Virus record (IMG/VR): IMGVR_UViG_3300022751_000014
Coordinates: 1-37,523 of that record
DNA: 37,523 nt
Origin: a virus
Direction: 5' to 3' (one strand)
In this document: positions 1 to 37,523 of the stretch, piece after piece
Layout of the letters: every line of letters begins with the position of its first letter
Position numbering within the stretch: the stretch's first letter is position 1
The notes under the pieces: model-generated
Told to the model about the DNA's origin: nothing
Database searches by the model: none
Seen by the model: the letters and a program-made list of their open reading frames with translations, nothing else
Program-made: the position numbers and the translations under genes

Positions 1-127
1 GCTGGAAAGTTTTGACTACGAGATCTTTTGGTCTCACGGTAAGTCACTTCCACAGGCGTTTAATGACCCAACAGAGAAAGCACTCGCAGACCCTAACGTG
101 TTTGCGGTGCTTTTTTGTGAGGATGAC
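1..127. repeat. Direct terminal repeat, left copy
   Basis: These 127 bases are identical to the last 127 bases of the window. An exact repeat of this size at both ends of a contig is what a de Bruijn assembler leaves when it closes a circle (127 is a common k-mer length), so the repeat is more likely an assembly overlap than a phage terminal repeat. It lies inside a coding gene, which also argues against a biological terminus here. Confidence 0.95.
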
Positions 128-3824: not shown

Positions 3825-3849
3825 GTGCTATAATAACCCTAATACGGGC
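3825..3849 (+). promoter_or_regulatory. Tagged late promoter 1 (fibre genes)
   Basis: An extended -10, TGC TATAAT at 3826-3834, is followed after 7 nt by AATACGGGC ending at 3849, and the ATG lies at 3861. No good -35 is seen. ATACGGGC sits where transcription should start, so it is probably the first eight bases of the mRNA. The same arrangement occurs before 7704, 11817, 32299 and 36223. Confidence 0.8.
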
Positions 3850-7666: not shown

Positions 7667-7690
7667 TGTTATAATTAAATCAATACGGGC
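7667..7690 (+). promoter_or_regulatory. Tagged late promoter 2 (adaptor gene)
   Basis: TGT TATAAT ends at 7675, then 7 nt, then ATACGGGC at 7683-7690. The gene starts 21 nt after the first base of the tag, and CGGAGTG inside the leader can serve as ribosome-binding site. Confidence 0.8.
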
Positions 7691-11780: not shown

Positions 11781-11804
11781 TGTTATAATCTAGTTAATAC
11801 GGGC
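11781..11804 (+). promoter_or_regulatory. Tagged late promoter 3 (ejection proteins)
   Basis: TGT TATAAT at 11784-11789, 7 nt, then ATACGGGC from 11797; the gene starts 20 nt after the first tag base. A weak TTGTAT lies 18 nt upstream of the -10 as possible -35. Confidence 0.8.
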
Positions 11805-18505: not shown

Positions 18506-18543
18506 TATATTACCACGTTAAAGGCAGAAATGAAGAAGGCACT
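18506..18543 (+). repeat. 38-bp gene-start repeat, copy 1
   Basis: Identical to 19734-19771. It holds the AAAGG ribosome-binding site, ATG and first four codons (M K K A) of the 18530 gene plus about 24 bases of leader. Confidence 0.95.
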
Positions 18544-19223: not shown

Positions 19224-19336
19224 ATAGGGCTATGTCGTAAAATATATGTTGTGCGACCACTGTAACAGGGGTGATTGTTTACTTGGAATACATTTGTTAG
19301 TACATACACCACATATAGCGTGTTAAAAGTTGCCAT
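19196..19336 (-). CDS. Possible small minus-strand protein
   Basis: A 46-residue minus-strand frame with a strong ribosome-binding site (AGGGGG, five bases before ATG 19336). The sequence is mixed in composition (MATFNTLYVVYVLTNVF at the start, basic end) with no recognisable domain. It follows another minus-strand frame at 19356-19514 by 19 bases and could share its transcript. The overlap with the plus-strand membrane gene and the short length keep this tentative. Confidence 0.35.
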   Translation of the reverse strand: MATFNTLYVVYVLTNVFQVNNHPCYSGRTTYILRHSPIQLRDRATK

Positions 19337-19355
19337 ACAGACCCCCTTCTCGCAG

Positions 19356-19514
19356 CTAGAGACCAGGAACAAACACGAACCTTCTACTAGTGTTATTTAA
19401 GACCTTTCCTCTTCCCAAGTACTCAGTAATAACAGCCGAACATTTGATGACATCGCATAGACCAGGTTGACGTTTAGGGGTCAATAAATCAGAGCCTGGG
19501 TTTAACGTCACCAT
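19356..19514 (-). CDS. Possible small minus-strand protein with paired cysteines
   Basis: A 52-residue minus-strand frame from ATG 19514. Its composition is protein-like (GLCDVIKCSAVITEYLGRG, NNTSRRFVFVPGL) and it has a CxxxxC pair, but there is no clear Shine-Dalgarno sequence. A 14-codon GTG frame with a protein-like start (VKVIIEFDGDV) overlaps the beginning in another frame. This may mean a leader peptide or a frameshifted gene. The region 19224-19593 holds nothing convincing on the plus strand. Confidence 0.4.
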   Translation of the reverse strand: MVTLNPGSDLLTPKRQPGLCDVIKCSAVITEYLGRGKVLNNTSRRFVFVPGL

Positions 19515-19593
19515 CAAATTCAATTATTACTTTCACTTCGTTTTTCGTCCTATAAGGGAGGGGCTACGGCAATAACAGGGGTTGTAAAAGTAT

Positions 19594-19621
19594 TTGCAAT
19601 TTGGTGTCTATCTGATAGAAT
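19594..19621 (+). promoter_or_regulatory. Promoter of a short plus-strand RNA
   Basis: TTGCAA, 16-nt spacer, TAGAAT (19616-19621) preceded by TGA (extended -10). A terminator begins only 25 nt after the -10. TTGCAA is self-complementary and might serve a divergent minus-strand promoter too, but no good minus -10 is seen at the right distance. Confidence 0.6.
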
Positions 19622-19626
19622 AAAAG

Positions 19627-19672
19627 AAGACAAAAACATAGCCTTCCCCGCACGCAAATGCGGGGTTCTTTA
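19627..19672 (+). ncRNA. Candidate short terminated RNA (about 45 nt)
   Basis: A promoter ending at 19621 is followed directly by the terminator stem CCCCGCA / TGCGGGG (19646-19652 with 19659-19665, loop CGCAAA) and TTCTTTAT. No open frame fits between. The 5' arm AGACAAAAACA..GCCTT is repeated with two changes at 19707-19724. This may be a small regulatory or decoy RNA, or simply an attenuated leader. Confidence 0.5.
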
Positions 19673-19733
19673 TATCCCAAATTACCCCCTAAAACTGCTT
19701 GTGTTAGACAAAAACACTGCCTTAGGTTATGTT

Positions 19734-19771
19734 TATATTACCACGTTAAAGGCAGAAATGAAGAAGGCACT
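19734..19771 (+). repeat. 38-bp gene-start repeat, copy 2
   Basis: Perfect copy of 18506-18543, including the AAAGG site and ATG. Its own promoter candidate is TAGACA-17-TATGTT at 19705-19733. Confidence 0.95.
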
Positions 19772-19886
19772 TTTTCTAATTCTACAATCTCTTGTGGTGA
19801 GAGTTGTATATTCTACAATATTTGCAGCCCATATTAAAAGGTTGTATTATTGTATTTTACGAATATATAAAATACCCGCCAATTAA
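19758..19886 (+). CDS. Short protein from the duplicated gene start, possibly a remnant
   Basis: The second copy of the gene start runs into a different sequence and encodes 42 residues: MKKALFLILQSLVVRVVYSTIFAA then a basic, Tyr-rich end. The first half is hydrophobic like a signal anchor. After the shared 38 bp there is no similarity to the 18530 gene. It could be a decayed duplicate, a small membrane peptide, or a leader whose translation start is conserved for regulation. Confidence 0.4.
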   Translation: MKKALFLILQSLVVRVVYSTIFAAHIKRLYYCILRIYKIPAN

Positions 19887-19958
19887 GACGGGTTCATTTA
19901 CGGTCAACCTAGAATTTTCATAGGTCAACGACAGGTGCAAAAACTGGCTAACAGTTTC
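19866..19958 (-). ncRNA. Candidate minus-strand small RNA 1 (about 90 nt)
   Basis: A minus-strand extended -10, TGG TATAAT (complement of 19965-19973), is followed by AAACTG-TTAGC-CAGTTT, a six-bp hairpin. The 3' end is a terminator-like hairpin ACCCGTC / GGCGGGT with tail ATTTTATATATT (complement of 19874-19893). One pair of that stem is a G-U wobble only in minus-strand RNA and a mismatch on the plus strand. GTTGACC occurs twice 22 bases apart inside. No plausible open frame was found. Confidence 0.5.
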
Positions 19959-19977
19959 GTCCGTATTATACCACTAA

Positions 19978-20120
19978 GTGAAAAGACCCCCTAGACAGAA
20001 TAGTGCTCCAATAGGGGTCTTACTAAGATTGCAGCAAACAATGAGAGAAGTTCGCTGCTATGATATACCAAAGGTACGTGCCAGACCGTGATCCAGTTCA
20101 ATACCGGTAATCTGGTAATG
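19978..20120 (-). ncRNA. Candidate minus-strand small RNA 2 (about 140 nt)
   Basis: It has the best promoter of the cluster: TTGCCA (complement of 20149-20154), 17-nt spacer, TATATT (complement of 20126-20131) with TGA before it. Predicted hairpins are a CCAGA / TCTGG stem reinforced by CCG / CGG, then GCAGCGAAC / GTTTGCTGC (9 bp with one G-U that pairs only on this strand). The 3' end is a terminator AAGACCCC / GGGGTCTT followed by TTTC, with a long 23-nt loop. No open frame with a start signal was found. It resembles an independently transcribed structured RNA. Confidence 0.6.
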
Positions 20121-20157
20121 CTTAGAATATATCACGTTATATAGGTTATGGCAACAT

Positions 20158-20215
20158 AAAACAAAGTCCGTACTGGACGGACTAAGGGCTGCGTCCACAA
20201 CATGGTAGTACAGTG
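20158..20215 (-). ncRNA. Candidate minus-strand small RNA 3 (about 50 nt)
   Basis: A compact terminator AGTCCGT-CCAGT-ACGGACT followed by TTGTTTTA (complement of 20165-20183) ends a short minus-strand stretch. The best start is an extended -10 TGC TATGCT or TGC TATAGG near 20215-20230 without a good -35, so it may instead be the 3' end of read-through from RNA 4. Confidence 0.4.
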
Positions 20216-20227
20216 CCTATAGCATAG

Positions 20228-20318
20228 CACAAAAGAAAACGCCCCCGTGGAAGAATTGATACAACAAGTGTAAGATTCAGGGGCGTTTGGCTATATCTTA
20301 CCACCTATAAGGTAATAA
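20228..20318 (-). ncRNA. Candidate minus-strand small RNA 4 (about 90 nt)
   Basis: Promoter candidate on the minus strand: TAGCAA (complement of 20348-20353), 17 nt, TATAAG (complement of 20325-20330). The first hairpin is CTTATTACC / GGTGGTAAG with a 5-nt loop; its two wobble pairs form only in minus-strand RNA. The 3' hairpin is AAACGCCCC / GGGGCGTTT with an unusually long 34-nt loop, followed by TCTTTT. No open frame of note was found. Confidence 0.5.
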
Positions 20319-20368
20319 GGCAAGCTTATACAACACACAAGGAATACTTGCTAGTTCTCTAAAACGTA

Positions 20369-20397
20369 TTGCAAAACCACTACCACTGTGCTATTAT
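20369..20397 (+). promoter_or_regulatory. Early promoter E1
   Basis: TTGCAA, 17-nt spacer, TATTAT with TGC before it. The spacer contains ACCACTACCAC and the leader GGAAGGATTGAATAC ends at the ATG. Both the spacer and the leader are shared with promoters at 24003 and 25859, so they are probably a common regulatory signature. Confidence 0.85.
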
Positions 20398-20430
20398 AGA
20401 GGTAAATCAATTTTAGGAAGGATTGAATAC

Positions 20431-32257: not shown

Positions 32258-32285
32258 TGCTATAATTCCCTCATTGGATACGGGT
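32258..32285 (+). promoter_or_regulatory. Tagged late promoter 4 (portal gene)
   Basis: TGC TATAAT at 32261-32266; ATACGGGT starts after 11 nt at 32278, a longer gap than in the other copies. TTGTAC at 32237 is a possible -35 with an 18-nt spacer. ATG 32299 lies 21 nt after the first tag base. Confidence 0.75.
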
Positions 32286-32298
32286 GTTAGGACAACTA

Positions 32299-34143
32299 AT
32301 GCCTTCTAAGAGATCTCAAAAAGCGGTTCCTAAAGATGACGCACTCAATACAGTCGTCACCGCGTTTGACCGTTCTTGGGAGTATACAGAGGGTTCCTGG
32401 CACACCCGTTGGGATAACAACTACAAGCTCTATAACAACAACCGTGTAAAGCGTGGGTATCAAGGTATTACAGACACTTTTGTACCTATGTCTTTCTCTA
32501 CAGTTGAGACGCTTACATCAGGACTGTTCGGTGCTAAGCCTAAGTTCGACTACCTTCCTCCTCAAGAGAAACAAGATCAGAAAACGGATATTCTTAACTC
32601 AGCACTCGACTACTATTGGGATAAGGACCAATGGTCACTAAAGATCATTAATACCGGCCGCAATATGTTCAAGCTCGGGACAGCAATTGACTTCTTTATA
32701 TGGGACATAGACCATCCATGCCTTATTAACGTTCCCATTCGTGACTTCTTTATCTCACCTGAGTCGTCTGAACTATCAGAGGCAAACACACGCTACTGTG
32801 GACGCCGCTACCTTACCTCCAAAGAGGAGCTAGAAGGCTTTGAGATCGTTGACCTTGAAGGTGAGCCTGACGAAGACGGCAACTACCCACTAAAGAAGAA
32901 ATACAAGAACCTCGATAAGATCTCGTACGATGGTGGTACACAGGGTGAAAATACAGATAAAGAACAGAAGGACATGTTCTATGGATCTACTGTGTCTGAG
33001 GCTCATAAGACTCAAGTTGAGGTAATCGAATATTGGACCGTTGATCGAATCATCTCAGTCGCTAATAGGTCAGTTGTCATTGAGGACACAGAGAACTACT
33101 TTAAAGCCAAAGACAAGGCTAACGGATCTAAATACCCTAAGGGACTACTCCCGTTTGCCGACGCTCGTGACTACGTAGACGAATCACTTTTCTATGCGAA
33201 GGGAGAGATTGATATTATCGCCGACGAGCAAGAACTTCTCAACGATATCACTAACCAGAATATCGACTCTATTACCTACACGCTGAACCAGATGTACACG
33301 CTTGATCCTAAGTACGCTCACCTACTCAGTGAGATTGAGAACCTACCAGGTGCTGTCTATCCCGTTGAAGCAAACGCGCTTGTTCCTATCCCACAAAGGC
33401 CTATCCCACCAGATGCTTTCTTAGAACGTCAGAACATCAAGAACGAGATCCGTGAAACTACAGCGTCTAGCGAGATTGTAAAAGGTGTCGGAGAGCAAGG
33501 TGCTGGTAAGTCTACAGCTACTGAGATTAACGCTCAAGTAGCAGGTGCAGGCCAACGCTTCTCTCTTAAAGTGACACAGATTGAAAACGGTTACTTCTAT
33601 CGCATGGCAAAGATCATCTTTAGAATGATTCAGCTATACGTTACAGAGCCTATGATGGTTCGTATTGTTGGTAAAGATGGTGCTCGTTGGGAAGAGTTTG
33701 ACCCATCTGAGTTCCAGGGTGAATACGAGCCACGTGTACAACTTGAAGCAACTATCAATAACGAGAAACAGAATCAAGCTAACGACGCTAAAGAGCTGCT
33801 TGGTGCTTTTCTCGGAGACCCAGACGTTAACCAACAGGAGCTAAAAAAGCTCGTGTTACAACGCTCATTTGACCTTGATCCTGACGAAGTTGAAGCACTT
33901 ATGGCCCCTATGGTACAAGGCGGAATGGGAGCACCTATTGATCCAGCTATGGCCAACCTGCCGCCTGAGCTAGCTGGTATGGGTGGTGGCATGCCTCCTG
34001 AGATGATGGCTCCTCCCCCAGATCCTAGTGCTGAGATCAAGGCTGCAAAAGAACAACAACAAATGGAACAGTCTGCTGAGCAGCATGAAATTGACATGGC
34101 GATGAAGGTTGCTAAACTACGTCAGATGCAAGGAGGTGTATAA
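32299..34143 (+). CDS. Portal protein
   Basis: A 614-residue protein from ATG 32299, with TTAGGACA upstream; an upstream GTG at 32284 lies within the promoter tag. It matches podovirus-type portals: an N-terminal WHTRWDNNYKLYNNNR, TFVPMSFSTVETLTSGLFGAKPKFDYLPP, IPIRDFF-type, LYFAKGEID-type and NDITNQNIDSI. The clip and wing part contains TTASSEIVKGVGEQG.GKSTATEIN. The last 80 residues are Met/Pro/Gly-rich followed by a Gln-rich helix, as in P22-like barrels. The dodecameric portal is the DNA gate and nucleates head assembly. Confidence 0.92.
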   Translation: MPSKRSQKAVPKDDALNTVVTAFDRSWEYTEGSWHTRWDNNYKLYNNNRVKRGYQGITDTFVPMSFSTVETLTSGLFGAKPKFDYLPPQEKQDQKTDILNSALDYYWDKDQWSLKIINTGRNMFKLGTAIDFFIWDIDHPCLINVPIRDFFISPESSELSEANTRYCGRRYLTSKEELEGFEIVDLEGEPDEDGNYPLKKKYKNLDKISYDGGTQGENTDKEQKDMFYGSTVSEAHKTQVEVIEYWTVDRIISVANRSVVIEDTENYFKAKDKANGSKYPKGLLPFADARDYVDESLFYAKGEIDIIADEQELLNDITNQNIDSITYTLNQMYTLDPKYAHLLSEIENLPGAVYPVEANALVPIPQRPIPPDAFLERQNIKNEIRETTASSEIVKGVGEQGAGKSTATEINAQVAGAGQRFSLKVTQIENGYFYRMAKIIFRMIQLYVTEPMMVRIVGKDGARWEEFDPSEFQGEYEPRVQLEATINNEKQNQANDAKELLGAFLGDPDVNQQELKKLVLQRSFDLDPDEVEALMAPMVQGGMGAPIDPAMANLPPELAGMGGGMPPEMMAPPPDPSAEIKAAKEQQQMEQSAEQHEIDMAMKVAKLRQMQGGV

Positions 34144-34364
34144 TGAAGACCCCTACTAATCTTGTTAACGCTTACCAACAGTTCTTTTTAAAGAGCGAAG
34201 ATGGTCAGTTCTTCCTGGAGACGATGGAGAAGATTATTTCAGACCAACATGAACTTGCAGAGAAGGATGGAGATAAGGCAAGAGACCATACACAGAGGGC
34301 TAAGGGCGCACGCTTAGTTCAGGAACATATCCAAAGCGTGCTAGGAGGTGTAAAGAAAACCTGA
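34143..34364 (+). CDS. Small protein between portal and scaffold
   Basis: A 73-residue protein overlapping the portal stop (TAATG). It is charged and helical (LVNAYQQFFLKSEDGQFFLETMEKIISDQHELAEKDGD) and ends in a Lys-rich tail. Small helical proteins in this position are common between portal and scaffold genes and may aid assembly. No family is recognised. Confidence 0.62.
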   Translation: MKTPTNLVNAYQQFFLKSEDGQFFLETMEKIISDQHELAEKDGDKARDHTQRAKGARLVQEHIQSVLGGVKKT

Positions 34365-34375
34365 TCGTTATTCGG

Positions 34376-34437
34376 AATAGTAGCTGGAATATTATTTAAT
34401 ACTAGCCCGTATTAAACCAGCTACTATTCGGGCTAGT
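34376..34437 (+). promoter_or_regulatory. Intergenic pseudoknot carrying the antisense of the late tag
   Basis: Stem A is AATAGTAGCTGG / CCAGCTACTATT (34376-34387 with 34417-34428). Stem B is ACTAGCCCG / CGGGCTAGT (34401-34409 with 34429-34437). The 5' strand of B lies in the loop of A and its 3' strand abuts A, so both can form together as an H-type pseudoknot with 21 stacked pairs. A small hairpin TTAATAC / GTATTAA competes inside the loop. GCCCGTATTA (34405-34414) is the exact complement of the late tag TAATACGGGC. Confidence 0.75.
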
Positions 34438-34454
34438 GATAATGAGGTACAACA

Positions 34455-35237
34455 ATGGACGATAAAACCACAACTGATGCTCCTGTTGAACCTGGCGAGG
34501 TACAGACCATTAACGGAATCGCAATCGACGATCAAGGAATGGCAATCTCAGAACCAGACGAAACAACGGAATCTAATTCAGCGGTTGAAACAACCAGTGA
34601 AACCGAGCAAGAAGCTGTAGAAGCGAATCAAGAGCCATCTGAAGAAGATGAACAACTCACCAAGTTCGCTGAAACAAAGGGACTAACGCTCGATAGCGAC
34701 AACGCTAGAAAAGCAGCTAAAATGGCTATGAACGCCGAGAAGCTGATGCACAGTAAAGCTAACAAAGCGAGCGAACTAGAGCGAACTATGGGGCAAATGT
34801 CCGATGATTCTGCTTCTCAGGTAGCTCAAGCAACAGGACAAGACCCAGAAGTTCTAAAACGACTACAGCGTATGGAAGTCAAAGACTCTATTCGTGAGTT
34901 TTGGGACGGTAACCCTGACGCAAAGCAGTACGAGTCAGAGATGGCAAAGATTGCAGTTGAGTCAGGACTCTACGGGTCACCAGAAGCTATTTTAAAAGCA
35001 AGCTATGCTATGGCAGTCGCTGGCAATACAGATACTATCAAGTCACAGGGGAAACGAGAAGGTCTCGAATCCTTAGCCCACAAACAACAAGCAGCCGTCC
35101 CACGTGGTAATGCCGTTACATCTGGCGCGTCCAGTGAAGCAATTACACCACAAAACGTTGACTATCTAGTTGGTAAGAATGACATGTCATGGTACATGTC
35201 TCACCGCGATGAAATCAACAAGGTGATGGCTTCATAA
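34455..35237 (+). CDS. Scaffolding protein
   Basis: A 260-residue protein placed directly before the coat gene. Residues 1-75 are very acidic and Thr/Glu/Asp-rich. The middle is helical (NARKAAKMAMNAEKLMHSKANKASELERTM) and the C terminus is a small domain ending in MSWYMSHRDEINKVMAS. Acidic start, helical middle and helix-loop-helix end are typical of phage scaffolds that guide coat assembly and leave before maturation. Its leader contains the pseudoknot at 34376-34437. GAGGTAC is the best ribosome-binding site. Confidence 0.8.
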   Translation: MDDKTTTDAPVEPGEVQTINGIAIDDQGMAISEPDETTESNSAVETTSETEQEAVEANQEPSEEDEQLTKFAETKGLTLDSDNARKAAKMAMNAEKLMHSKANKASELERTMGQMSDDSASQVAQATGQDPEVLKRLQRMEVKDSIREFWDGNPDAKQYESEMAKIAVESGLYGSPEAILKASYAMAVAGNTDTIKSQGKREGLESLAHKQQAAVPRGNAVTSGASSEAITPQNVDYLVGKNDMSWYMSHRDEINKVMAS

Positions 35238-35260: not shown

Positions 35261-36142
35261 ATGGTATCAGGACTTTACGGTTCAGGTGCGGTAAACATTG
35301 GCGCAACAGCTGCTAACGTTTTCCGACCTAACATTTGGTCAAAGGAAGTATTGATGTTTGTTAAATCAAACCTCGTACTCCTCCCACTTATCAAACACTA
35401 CGACGCAGACGTTAAAGCTGGTGGTCAGACACTTGAGATCCCTAACGTTTCAGCTATTACAGCTAACCTTAAGAATCAGAATACTGTCGTCACGCTTAAC
35501 TACAACACAGAAACAAAAACAACGATCGTCTTAAACAAGCACTACGAAAGCTCATTCATCGTTGAAGACCTCGTTAAGATTCAATCGGTCTACGACCTTC
35601 GTAGCGACTACACAATGGCCGCTGCGTATGCGATCTCAGAGAAGATTGACTCAGACCTAGCTACTAACATGACAAGTACATGGAAGACAGCTGGACAAGC
35701 TTACGGTACATACGGTACAGCATTGAATGATAACCTCATCCTAACTGTTAACCGTTACCTAAGTGAAAATAAAGCACCTCGTTCAGACCGAAGCCTTGTT
35801 GTTGCACCTAAGGGTGAAGCAGAAATGCTTGCGATTGACAAGTATGTTCGTTACGATGCCCTCGGTGTTGGTGGCGATGACAACTCAATCCGCAACGGTA
35901 AGATTGGTCGTATCTACGGCGCAGACGTGTACATGAGCCAAAACCTCGTATACCTCGACACTGCAACAGACGAATACAACCACCTATTCTTCCACAAAGA
36001 AGCATGGGCGATCGCACTGCAACAGACACCACGTACTCAGGCACAATACAAGCAAGAGTACCTTGGTTGGTTGGTTACAGTTGATGTACTTTATGGACAC
36101 AACGCCCTACGTACCAACTTTGGATTTGTTCTTAAGAGTTAA
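35261..36142 (+). CDS. Major capsid protein
   Basis: A 293-residue protein with TTGGAG upstream. It has features of the HK97-fold coat group in short-tailed phages: an N-terminal ATAANVFRPNIWSKEVLMFVKSNLV, then LEIPNVSAI, and YNTETKTTIVLNKHYESSFIVEDLVKIQ. It continues with ISEKIDSDLATNM, RSLVVAPKGEAEML and a C-terminal GLF-type YLGWLVTVDVLYGHNALRTNFGFVL. The size is in the usual range for this fold. A terminator follows closely, as expected for the most highly expressed gene. Confidence 0.9.
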   Translation: MVSGLYGSGAVNIGATAANVFRPNIWSKEVLMFVKSNLVLLPLIKHYDADVKAGGQTLEIPNVSAITANLKNQNTVVTLNYNTETKTTIVLNKHYESSFIVEDLVKIQSVYDLRSDYTMAAAYAISEKIDSDLATNMTSTWKTAGQAYGTYGTALNDNLILTVNRYLSENKAPRSDRSLVVAPKGEAEMLAIDKYVRYDALGVGGDDNSIRNGKIGRIYGADVYMSQNLVYLDTATDEYNHLFFHKEAWAIALQQTPRTQAQYKQEYLGWLVTVDVLYGHNALRTNFGFVLKS

Positions 36143-36187: not shown

Positions 36188-36207
36188 TATAATAGATGTA
36201 TACGGGC
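36185..36207 (+). promoter_or_regulatory. Tagged late promoter 5 (downstream of capsid)
   Basis: TGT TATAAT (36185-36193), 6 nt, ATACGGGC at 36200-36207; the gene starts at 36223 after TAGGAGA. This is the most compact copy of the arrangement. Confidence 0.82.
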
Positions 36208-37330: not shown

Positions 37331-37523
37331 GCTTGCAGTCGTGTTACCGTCTCGCGGTTTAATGTTCTCCGAAACACTAGAGGACTTGCTCAACGAGCTG
37401 GAAAGTTTTGACTACGAGATCTTTTGGTCTCACGGTAAGTCACTTCCACAGGCGTTTAATGACCCAACAGAGAAAGCACTCGCAGACCCTAACGTGTTTG
37501 CGGTGCTTTTTTGTGAGGATGAC
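37302..37523 (+). CDS. Glycosyltransferase-like protein, 5' part (continues at base 1)
   Basis: ATG 37302 opens a frame that runs to the window end and, through the 127-base repeat, continues to 727. The start MLNQATTPSKLAVV is followed by LPSRGLMFSETLEDLLNEL, which matches the start of the paralogue at 711. There is no strong ribosome-binding site, so translation may be coupled to the overlapping gene before it. See the entry at 1-727 for motifs. Confidence 0.75.
   Translation, partial: MLNQATTPSKLAVVLPSRGLMFSETLEDLLNELESFDYEIFWSHGKSLPQAFNDPTEKALADPNVFAVLFCEDD
37397..37523. repeat. Direct terminal repeat, right copy
   Basis: Identical to bases 1-127; it shows that the contig closes into a circle of 37,396 bp. 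Confidence 0.95.

Follow-up and report, generated by a model that had tools for sequence, protein, structure and literature searches.

A conserved pseudoknot before the scaffold gene of uncultured tailed phages carries a loop complementary to the 5′ ends of predicted late mRNAs

Results

Why should the leader of a phage scaffold gene hold, inside a pseudoknot, the complement of the sequence with which other late mRNAs of the same phage are predicted to begin? The locus that raises this question lies in a 37.5-kb virus record, the whole of which (37,523 nt) was analyzed and is called the window here. A perfect 127-nt terminal repeat bounds it (window positions 1–127 and 37397–37523), so the record probably represents a whole phage genome. 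Between 30485 and 36142 the gene order is terminase, portal, a 73-aa ORF, putative scaffold and capsid, with the pseudoknot lying downstream of the 73-aa ORF and ahead of the scaffold gene. The portal gene spans 32284–34143; the 73-aa ORF (34143–34364, plus strand), whose stop codon abuts the structure, has positional counterparts in relatives, and no family match was obtained for it. The major capsid gene (35261–36142) matched phrog_267 (E = 1.8e-41). The 260-aa product of the gene at 34455–35237 (plus strand) is a putative scaffolding protein by its position between the portal and major capsid genes, no family match having been found for the protein itself. Its probable Shine-Dalgarno sequence, ATGAGG, read off the sequence at 34442–34447 (plus strand), lies outside the structure, and no masking of the ribosome-binding site by the fold is visible. 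Elsewhere in the window, the interval 19224–20430 is gene-poor, lies between the late and early regions and contains several hairpins, and a 38-nt exact repeat occurs at 18506–18543 and 19734–19771.

Among the relatives described below, three capsid relatives were found in metagenome-assembled genome (MAG) contigs, two of them in one Saccharibacteria MAG. This MAG membership, in itself weak evidence, points to Saccharibacteria as the probable hosts of these uncultured tailed phages. Isolated phages gave no nucleotide match and just remote capsid relatives with diverse hosts, and terminase matches were uninformative on the host.

A sequence-only reading of this DNA had described perfect stems of 12 and 9 bp that interlock before the scaffold gene. 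Both stems were recovered, within a pseudoknot that spans 34375–34437 as a whole (all strands of the structure are given on the plus strand). P1, the stem of the anti-tag hairpin, pairs GAATAGTAGCTGG (34375–34387) with CCAGCTACTATTC (34417–34429) in 13 perfect pairs. P2 pairs ACTAGCCC (34401–34408), inside the P1 loop, with GGGCTAGT (34430–34437) in 8 pairs, and the two helices adjoin on the 3′ side with no gap. Because the pair G34409–C34429 can be assigned to P2 in place of P1, the stem lengths are readable as either 12+9 or 13+8. Two further helices add to the original pair of stems: an inner hairpin, P3, which is the palindrome TTAATAC-TAGCCC-GTATTAA at 34396–34415 (5′ strand, 34396–34402; 3′ strand, 34409–34415) and has two bases in common with P2, and a short closing helix, P0, between ATC (34364–34366) and GAT (34438–34440). 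Nested folding permits a longer P0 that consumes part of the P2 3′ strand. The loop contains the anti-tag GCCCGTATTA (34405–34414), which overlaps P3 and is, as the same reading had noticed, a 10-nt perfect complement of the late tag TAATACGGGC; the downstream arm that it had likened to the tag is the P2 3′ strand, an internal tag-like copy that we call the pseudo-tag. A perfect 12-bp inverted repeat within 60 nt arose in 6 of 60 dinucleotide shuffles of the window, and such a repeat together with a second, interlocking stem of 8 bp in none of the 60. Rough energies were −17.3 kcal/mol for the tag duplex, −13.1 kcal/mol for the P2 duplex and about −4 kcal/mol for P3. These values put tag invasion and the cis fold in a similar range, so that competition between pairing in cis and in trans is plausible.

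To follow the structure in relatives, loci were collected by a capsid-protein search of viral contigs, which gave 71, and a profile search, which gave 80; two further searches widened the set. The same pseudoknot stands ahead of the scaffold gene in many of them, the most diverged being L164, at 54% capsid identity. An automatic pseudoknot search mis-assigned several leaders, so the helices were assigned manually before the pairs were counted; MAFFT alignments of mixed sets shift P2 between clades and were left out of the pair counts. In the window's group (8 sequences), 98.3% of the helix cells of P0, P1, P2 and P3 were paired, compared with only 21–40% in slid controls, and 11 of 30 pairs had changed on both sides. 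P1 had double changes in 8 of 14 pairs, with 99.1% of cells paired, and P3 had one double-change pair (CG/UA), with 94.6% paired. All cells of the three P0 pairs were paired and one pair showed double changes (AU/GC/GU), the helix being ATC/GAT in the window and GTC/GAC or GTT/AAC in other clades; its support is weaker than that of P1 because the pairs are few. A second clade was 100% paired, with 5 double-change pairs. The covariation signal comes mostly from P1 and to some extent from P0, as P2 is nearly constant within a clade. The outer pairs of P2 differ between clades in a compensating manner, and its pairs 5–8 occur as several pair types across 27 leaders. The conserved fold also has a conserved GGGC and an A-rich loop. 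Covariation had been proposed beforehand as the check on this structure, and with compensatory changes in the helices of two clades the structure is almost certainly real and conserved.

No match at the Rfam 15 gathering threshold was obtained in 20 sources, and the best sub-threshold matches in an E-value search were chance microRNA-like hairpins. A self-cleaving ribozyme was considered and rejected, as no family matched. Searches of an open-access library yielded no precedent in the form of a phage leader pseudoknot or a late-mRNA-pairing RNA. In three loci (L168, L171 and L177), another nested hairpin pair (GCTTG...CAAG around AAGCC...GGCTT) stands before the scaffold gene and replaces the pseudoknot. 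In six loci (L039, L043, L050, L159, L160 and L189), the capsid gene is split near codon 21 by an insert with an ORF of ~150 aa that, judged by eye, resembles LAGLIDADG proteins; for L039, L050 and L189 an Rfam scan gave no group I intron.

The late genes of the window are preceded by extended −10 promoters (TGnTATAAT) without a clear −35 box. With start sites predicted from the −10 box and tags taken from the predicted promoters, late transcripts are predicted to start with AATACGGGC or ATACGGGC; a tag stands at the predicted +1 of several late genes. On the plus strand, AATACGGGC is found before a 610-aa gene (3841–3849; promoter TGCTATAAT at 3826–3834), the gene of a 223-aa virion protein (7682–7690) and a 244-aa gene (11796–11804), and ATACGGGC before the gene that follows the capsid gene (36200–36207). 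The portal mRNA has a tag-like 5′ end, ATTGGATACGGG (32273–32284, plus strand), which pairs with the loop through GATACGGG. No tag was found at the early promoter at 20389 or at promoter 36965 of the window. The longer form TAATACGGGC is exact at 3840–3849 and 11795–11804 and has one change at 7681–7690; with at most one mismatch it has 8 matches on both strands, versus 1.42 expected.

The exact complement of the tag on the coding strand is essentially confined to the scaffold leader; outside it there is one copy each in G001 and G003, neither of them within a recognisable hairpin leader. A separate anti-tag small RNA encoded elsewhere was judged unlikely, as exact complements outside the leader are rare and a G–U-compatible second anti-tag at window position 19959 (GTCCGTATTA) lies in a context not comparable to the leader. 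A small RNA carrying the anti-tag may nevertheless be processed from the leader itself. We discarded a minus-strand promoter that would read the inverted tag, as there is no −10 element, and base pairing of the tag with the 16S decoding region, as the tags of L008 and clade F do not fit.

If loop and tag pair, both should change together between phages. Over whole contigs, tags are genome-specific, the tag of a genome recurring at several late promoters in the fuller contigs, and the tag/loop pairs differ: AATACGGGC/GCCCGTATT is replaced by AACATGGGC/GCCCATGTT in L008, ACACGGGC/GCCCGTGT in L009, AACTGGGC/GCCCAGTT in L028, CGGGCAGGG/CCCTGCCCG in L026, ACAAGGCGGG/CCTGCCTTGT in L069 (through one G–U) and CGGGCGAG/CTCGCCCG in L164. 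Own tag/loop duplexes exceeded cross pairings across 9 clades with hand-picked tags (p about 1e-5, clade permutation); because these tags had been picked for a GGG core, two stricter tests were added, in which own pairing ranked 2 of 5040 permutations when all rule-found promoters of 7 clades were used, and tags matched the loop outside the shared GGGC core by 3.0 nt versus 1.3 by permutation (p about 2e-4), the p-values being guides because clades share ancestry and permuting clades controls relatedness only partly. By contrast, the pseudo-tag matches the loop outside the core by about 1 nt, indicating that the 3′ half of the loop is tuned to the tags and not to P2. Within one clade, tags vary in ways that preserve loop pairing through G–U, and their position shifts by a few nucleotides relative to the predicted +1. 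L046 and L159 have lost the P2 partner and keep an 8-bp loop/tag match with different G–U positions.

Relatives that keep the tag and lose the complementary loop had been named as the case that would speak against pairing. Such relatives were mainly not seen; the loop changes with the tag and most relatives keep the complementarity. The exceptions are L012, which keeps the stem and has lost the GCCC loop, L179, which has the promoter and no hairpin, and clades H, I and J, where the match lies mainly within the core. In L178 the match extends over just 5 nt, and no tags were recognised in G020 and G006. Complementarity is kept by covariation between genomes, as expected of RNA–RNA pairing, which makes a functional pairing of loop and tag likely.

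More distant phages, with ~50–70% capsid identity (L048, L052, L053, L056, L157, L066, L044, L189, L211, L167, L170, L172 and L219), have no adjacent P2 strand. Their order is a stable hairpin (z −3.4 to −5.9; 12 folded), then a promoter, then the scaffold gene, and the hairpin loop complements the first 6–8 nt of the predicted scaffold mRNA and covaries with them, the loop/5′-end pairs including TACGCTC/GAGCGTA, AAAAGCTC/GAGCTTTT, ACACTC/GAGTGT and TTGCACCT/AGGTGCAA. Across 14 distant loci, a mean of 6.6 consecutive Watson-Crick pairs was found versus 3.8 expected (p 1e-5); with the 7 distinct tags only, p was 2.8e-4. Since these loops match 5′ ends without a P2, loop/5′-end complementarity is broader than the pseudoknot. 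In the distant contigs examined, the scaffold promoter is the only one that carries the tag, so that a role across the late regulon would be limited to the window's group. The P2 3′ strand of the window seems to correspond to a tagged leader, because the distant phages have a promoter and a true 5′ tag at that place.

Depending on the clade, the stop codon of the upstream ORF lies anywhere from 13 nt before the hairpin to 45 nt into it, suggesting that ribosomes on this ORF probably melt the hairpin. In L114, L163 and L115, a perfect extended −10 sequence, TGGTATAAT, lies inside the upstream ORF at a distance of roughly 75–100 nt from the hairpin; codon usage may account for it, or it may be the promoter of a short RNA.

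Discussion

From the comparative sequence evidence we conclude that the leader holds a conserved RNA–RNA recognition module, apparently able to pair either in cis, as the pseudoknot, or with late-mRNA 5′ ends. Such a module suggests that virion genes are controlled by a circuit of RNA acting on RNA. We lean towards a full regulatory account in which the leader acts as a riboregulatory hairpin of the portal–scaffold–capsid mRNA. P1 would present a loop, the anti-tag, built for pairing with the tag, the first 8–11 nt of late mRNAs. For phages of the window's group this loop would have a second partner, the tag-like sequence that directly follows the stem on its 3′ side, and the resulting H-type pseudoknot would lie shortly before the ribosome-binding site of the scaffold gene. 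Pairing in cis and in trans would compete, because the same loop bases serve both, and trans invasion by the tag may be rare because proximity favours the P2 helix in cis; translation of the short upstream ORF probably melts and resets the hairpin. We infer that the pairing forms in cells and acts after transcription, on the translation or decay of late mRNAs, where it would balance scaffold and capsid output against the other late mRNAs; repression of translation and protection of 5′ ends are other possible outcomes.

Two proposals made from the window alone fit parts of this account. One, that the structure is a switch derived from a tagged leader that has diverged, gains some support from the P2 3′ strand, which stands where distant relatives have their true tag; the other, that the RNA may sense tagged transcripts in trans, gains some from the covariation of loop and late tag across clades, as trans pairing requires. 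A bolder extension, which we regard as possible and put forward tentatively, is an RNA address code specific to each genome: the tag would be common to most late mRNAs, the loop in the head-gene mRNA would read it, the late mRNAs would directly regulate the scaffold–capsid mRNA or tether to it, and the internal tag copy would set the threshold.

The strong covariation of P1 and the intercistronic position would also suit a pseudoknot that acts only in cis within its own mRNA, for example as a block to a 5′–3′ exonuclease or as a translation element separating portal from scaffold and capsid, with the likeness to the tags a by-product of some other function that the P2 3′ strand has in common with the 5′ tags. 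The apical loop pairs just 3′ of the stem as in xrRNA_D elements, which are also intergenic (PMC6299227), and a flaviviral xrRNA halts bacterial RNase J1 (PMC5760640); the exonuclease block stays in play because the Saccharibacteria MAG that holds relatives encodes an RNase J homologue. However, tags pair with the loop past P2 on its 3′ side and the pseudo-tag does not, distant relatives hold the complementarity without an adjacent P2 strand, and L046 and L159 keep the tag match without P2. We therefore consider action in cis alone rather unlikely as the whole explanation.

Tags occupy roughly positions +1 to +10 of promoters that have an extended −10 and no clear −35, as one would expect if the tag were a downstream promoter part to which a phage transcription factor binds and the leader contained an inverted copy of the site; the loop is indeed the tag on the other strand, and an inverted copy flanks the promoter in the distant group. 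Such a DNA-level element is very improbable, given that tags move several nucleotides relative to the −10 box, that their differences preserve G–U pairing, that P1, P0 and P3 covary as RNA helices and that no −10 box precedes the inverted copy. It is also improbable that the fold is a target for a phage protein, such as scaffold or capsid, which would thereby repress its own synthesis: the site directly before the scaffold gene, the conserved fold, GGGC and the A-rich loop would all suit such control, but it does not predict covariation with the tags of other late mRNAs, and no protein partner is known.

If the riboregulatory account is true, virion genes would be coordinated by one mRNA that pairs with the 5′ ends of others and not by a protein or a dedicated small RNA, and the leader would add a new family of structured RNAs, found in phages whose hosts, the Patescibacteria, are little studied. 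Natural covariation has already produced matched tag/anti-tag pairs, which suggest themselves as ready-made compensatory swaps.

Three known systems invite comparison. In T4, a pseudoknot in the gene 32 leader is bound by gp32, which represses its own synthesis. Like the leader described here, it is a pseudoknot in a phage mRNA upstream of a phage gene; unlike it, the T4 pseudoknot is bound by the gene's own protein, and we know of no complementarity between it and tags in other mRNAs. In Staphylococcus aureus, RNAIII and the icaR 3′UTR use C-rich hairpin loops to pair with mRNA leaders. The likeness is a C-rich loop facing a G-rich leader near a ribosome-binding site, whereas in the phages the target is the 5′-terminal tag of many late mRNAs and the hairpin lies within another late mRNA.

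The xrRNA_D elements of dianthoviruses, tombusviruses and luteoviruses are exoribonuclease-resistant RNAs, which stop a 5′–3′ exoribonuclease and whose published consensus has highly conserved L1 and L2B sequences. They also occur between genes and before coding regions (PMC6299227), and the RNase J1 that a flaviviral xrRNA stops is a bacterial enzyme (PMC5760640). At the level of topology, at which this comparison is made, xrRNA_D and the leader both consist of a stem with an inner stem and a loop that forms a pseudoknot with the bases just 3′ of the outer stem, this pseudoknot contact of xrRNA_D being found in the leader as well. The leader differs from xrRNA_D in its P1 of mostly 10–13 bp, in the closing helix P0 and in a loop that matches the 5′ ends of other mRNAs.
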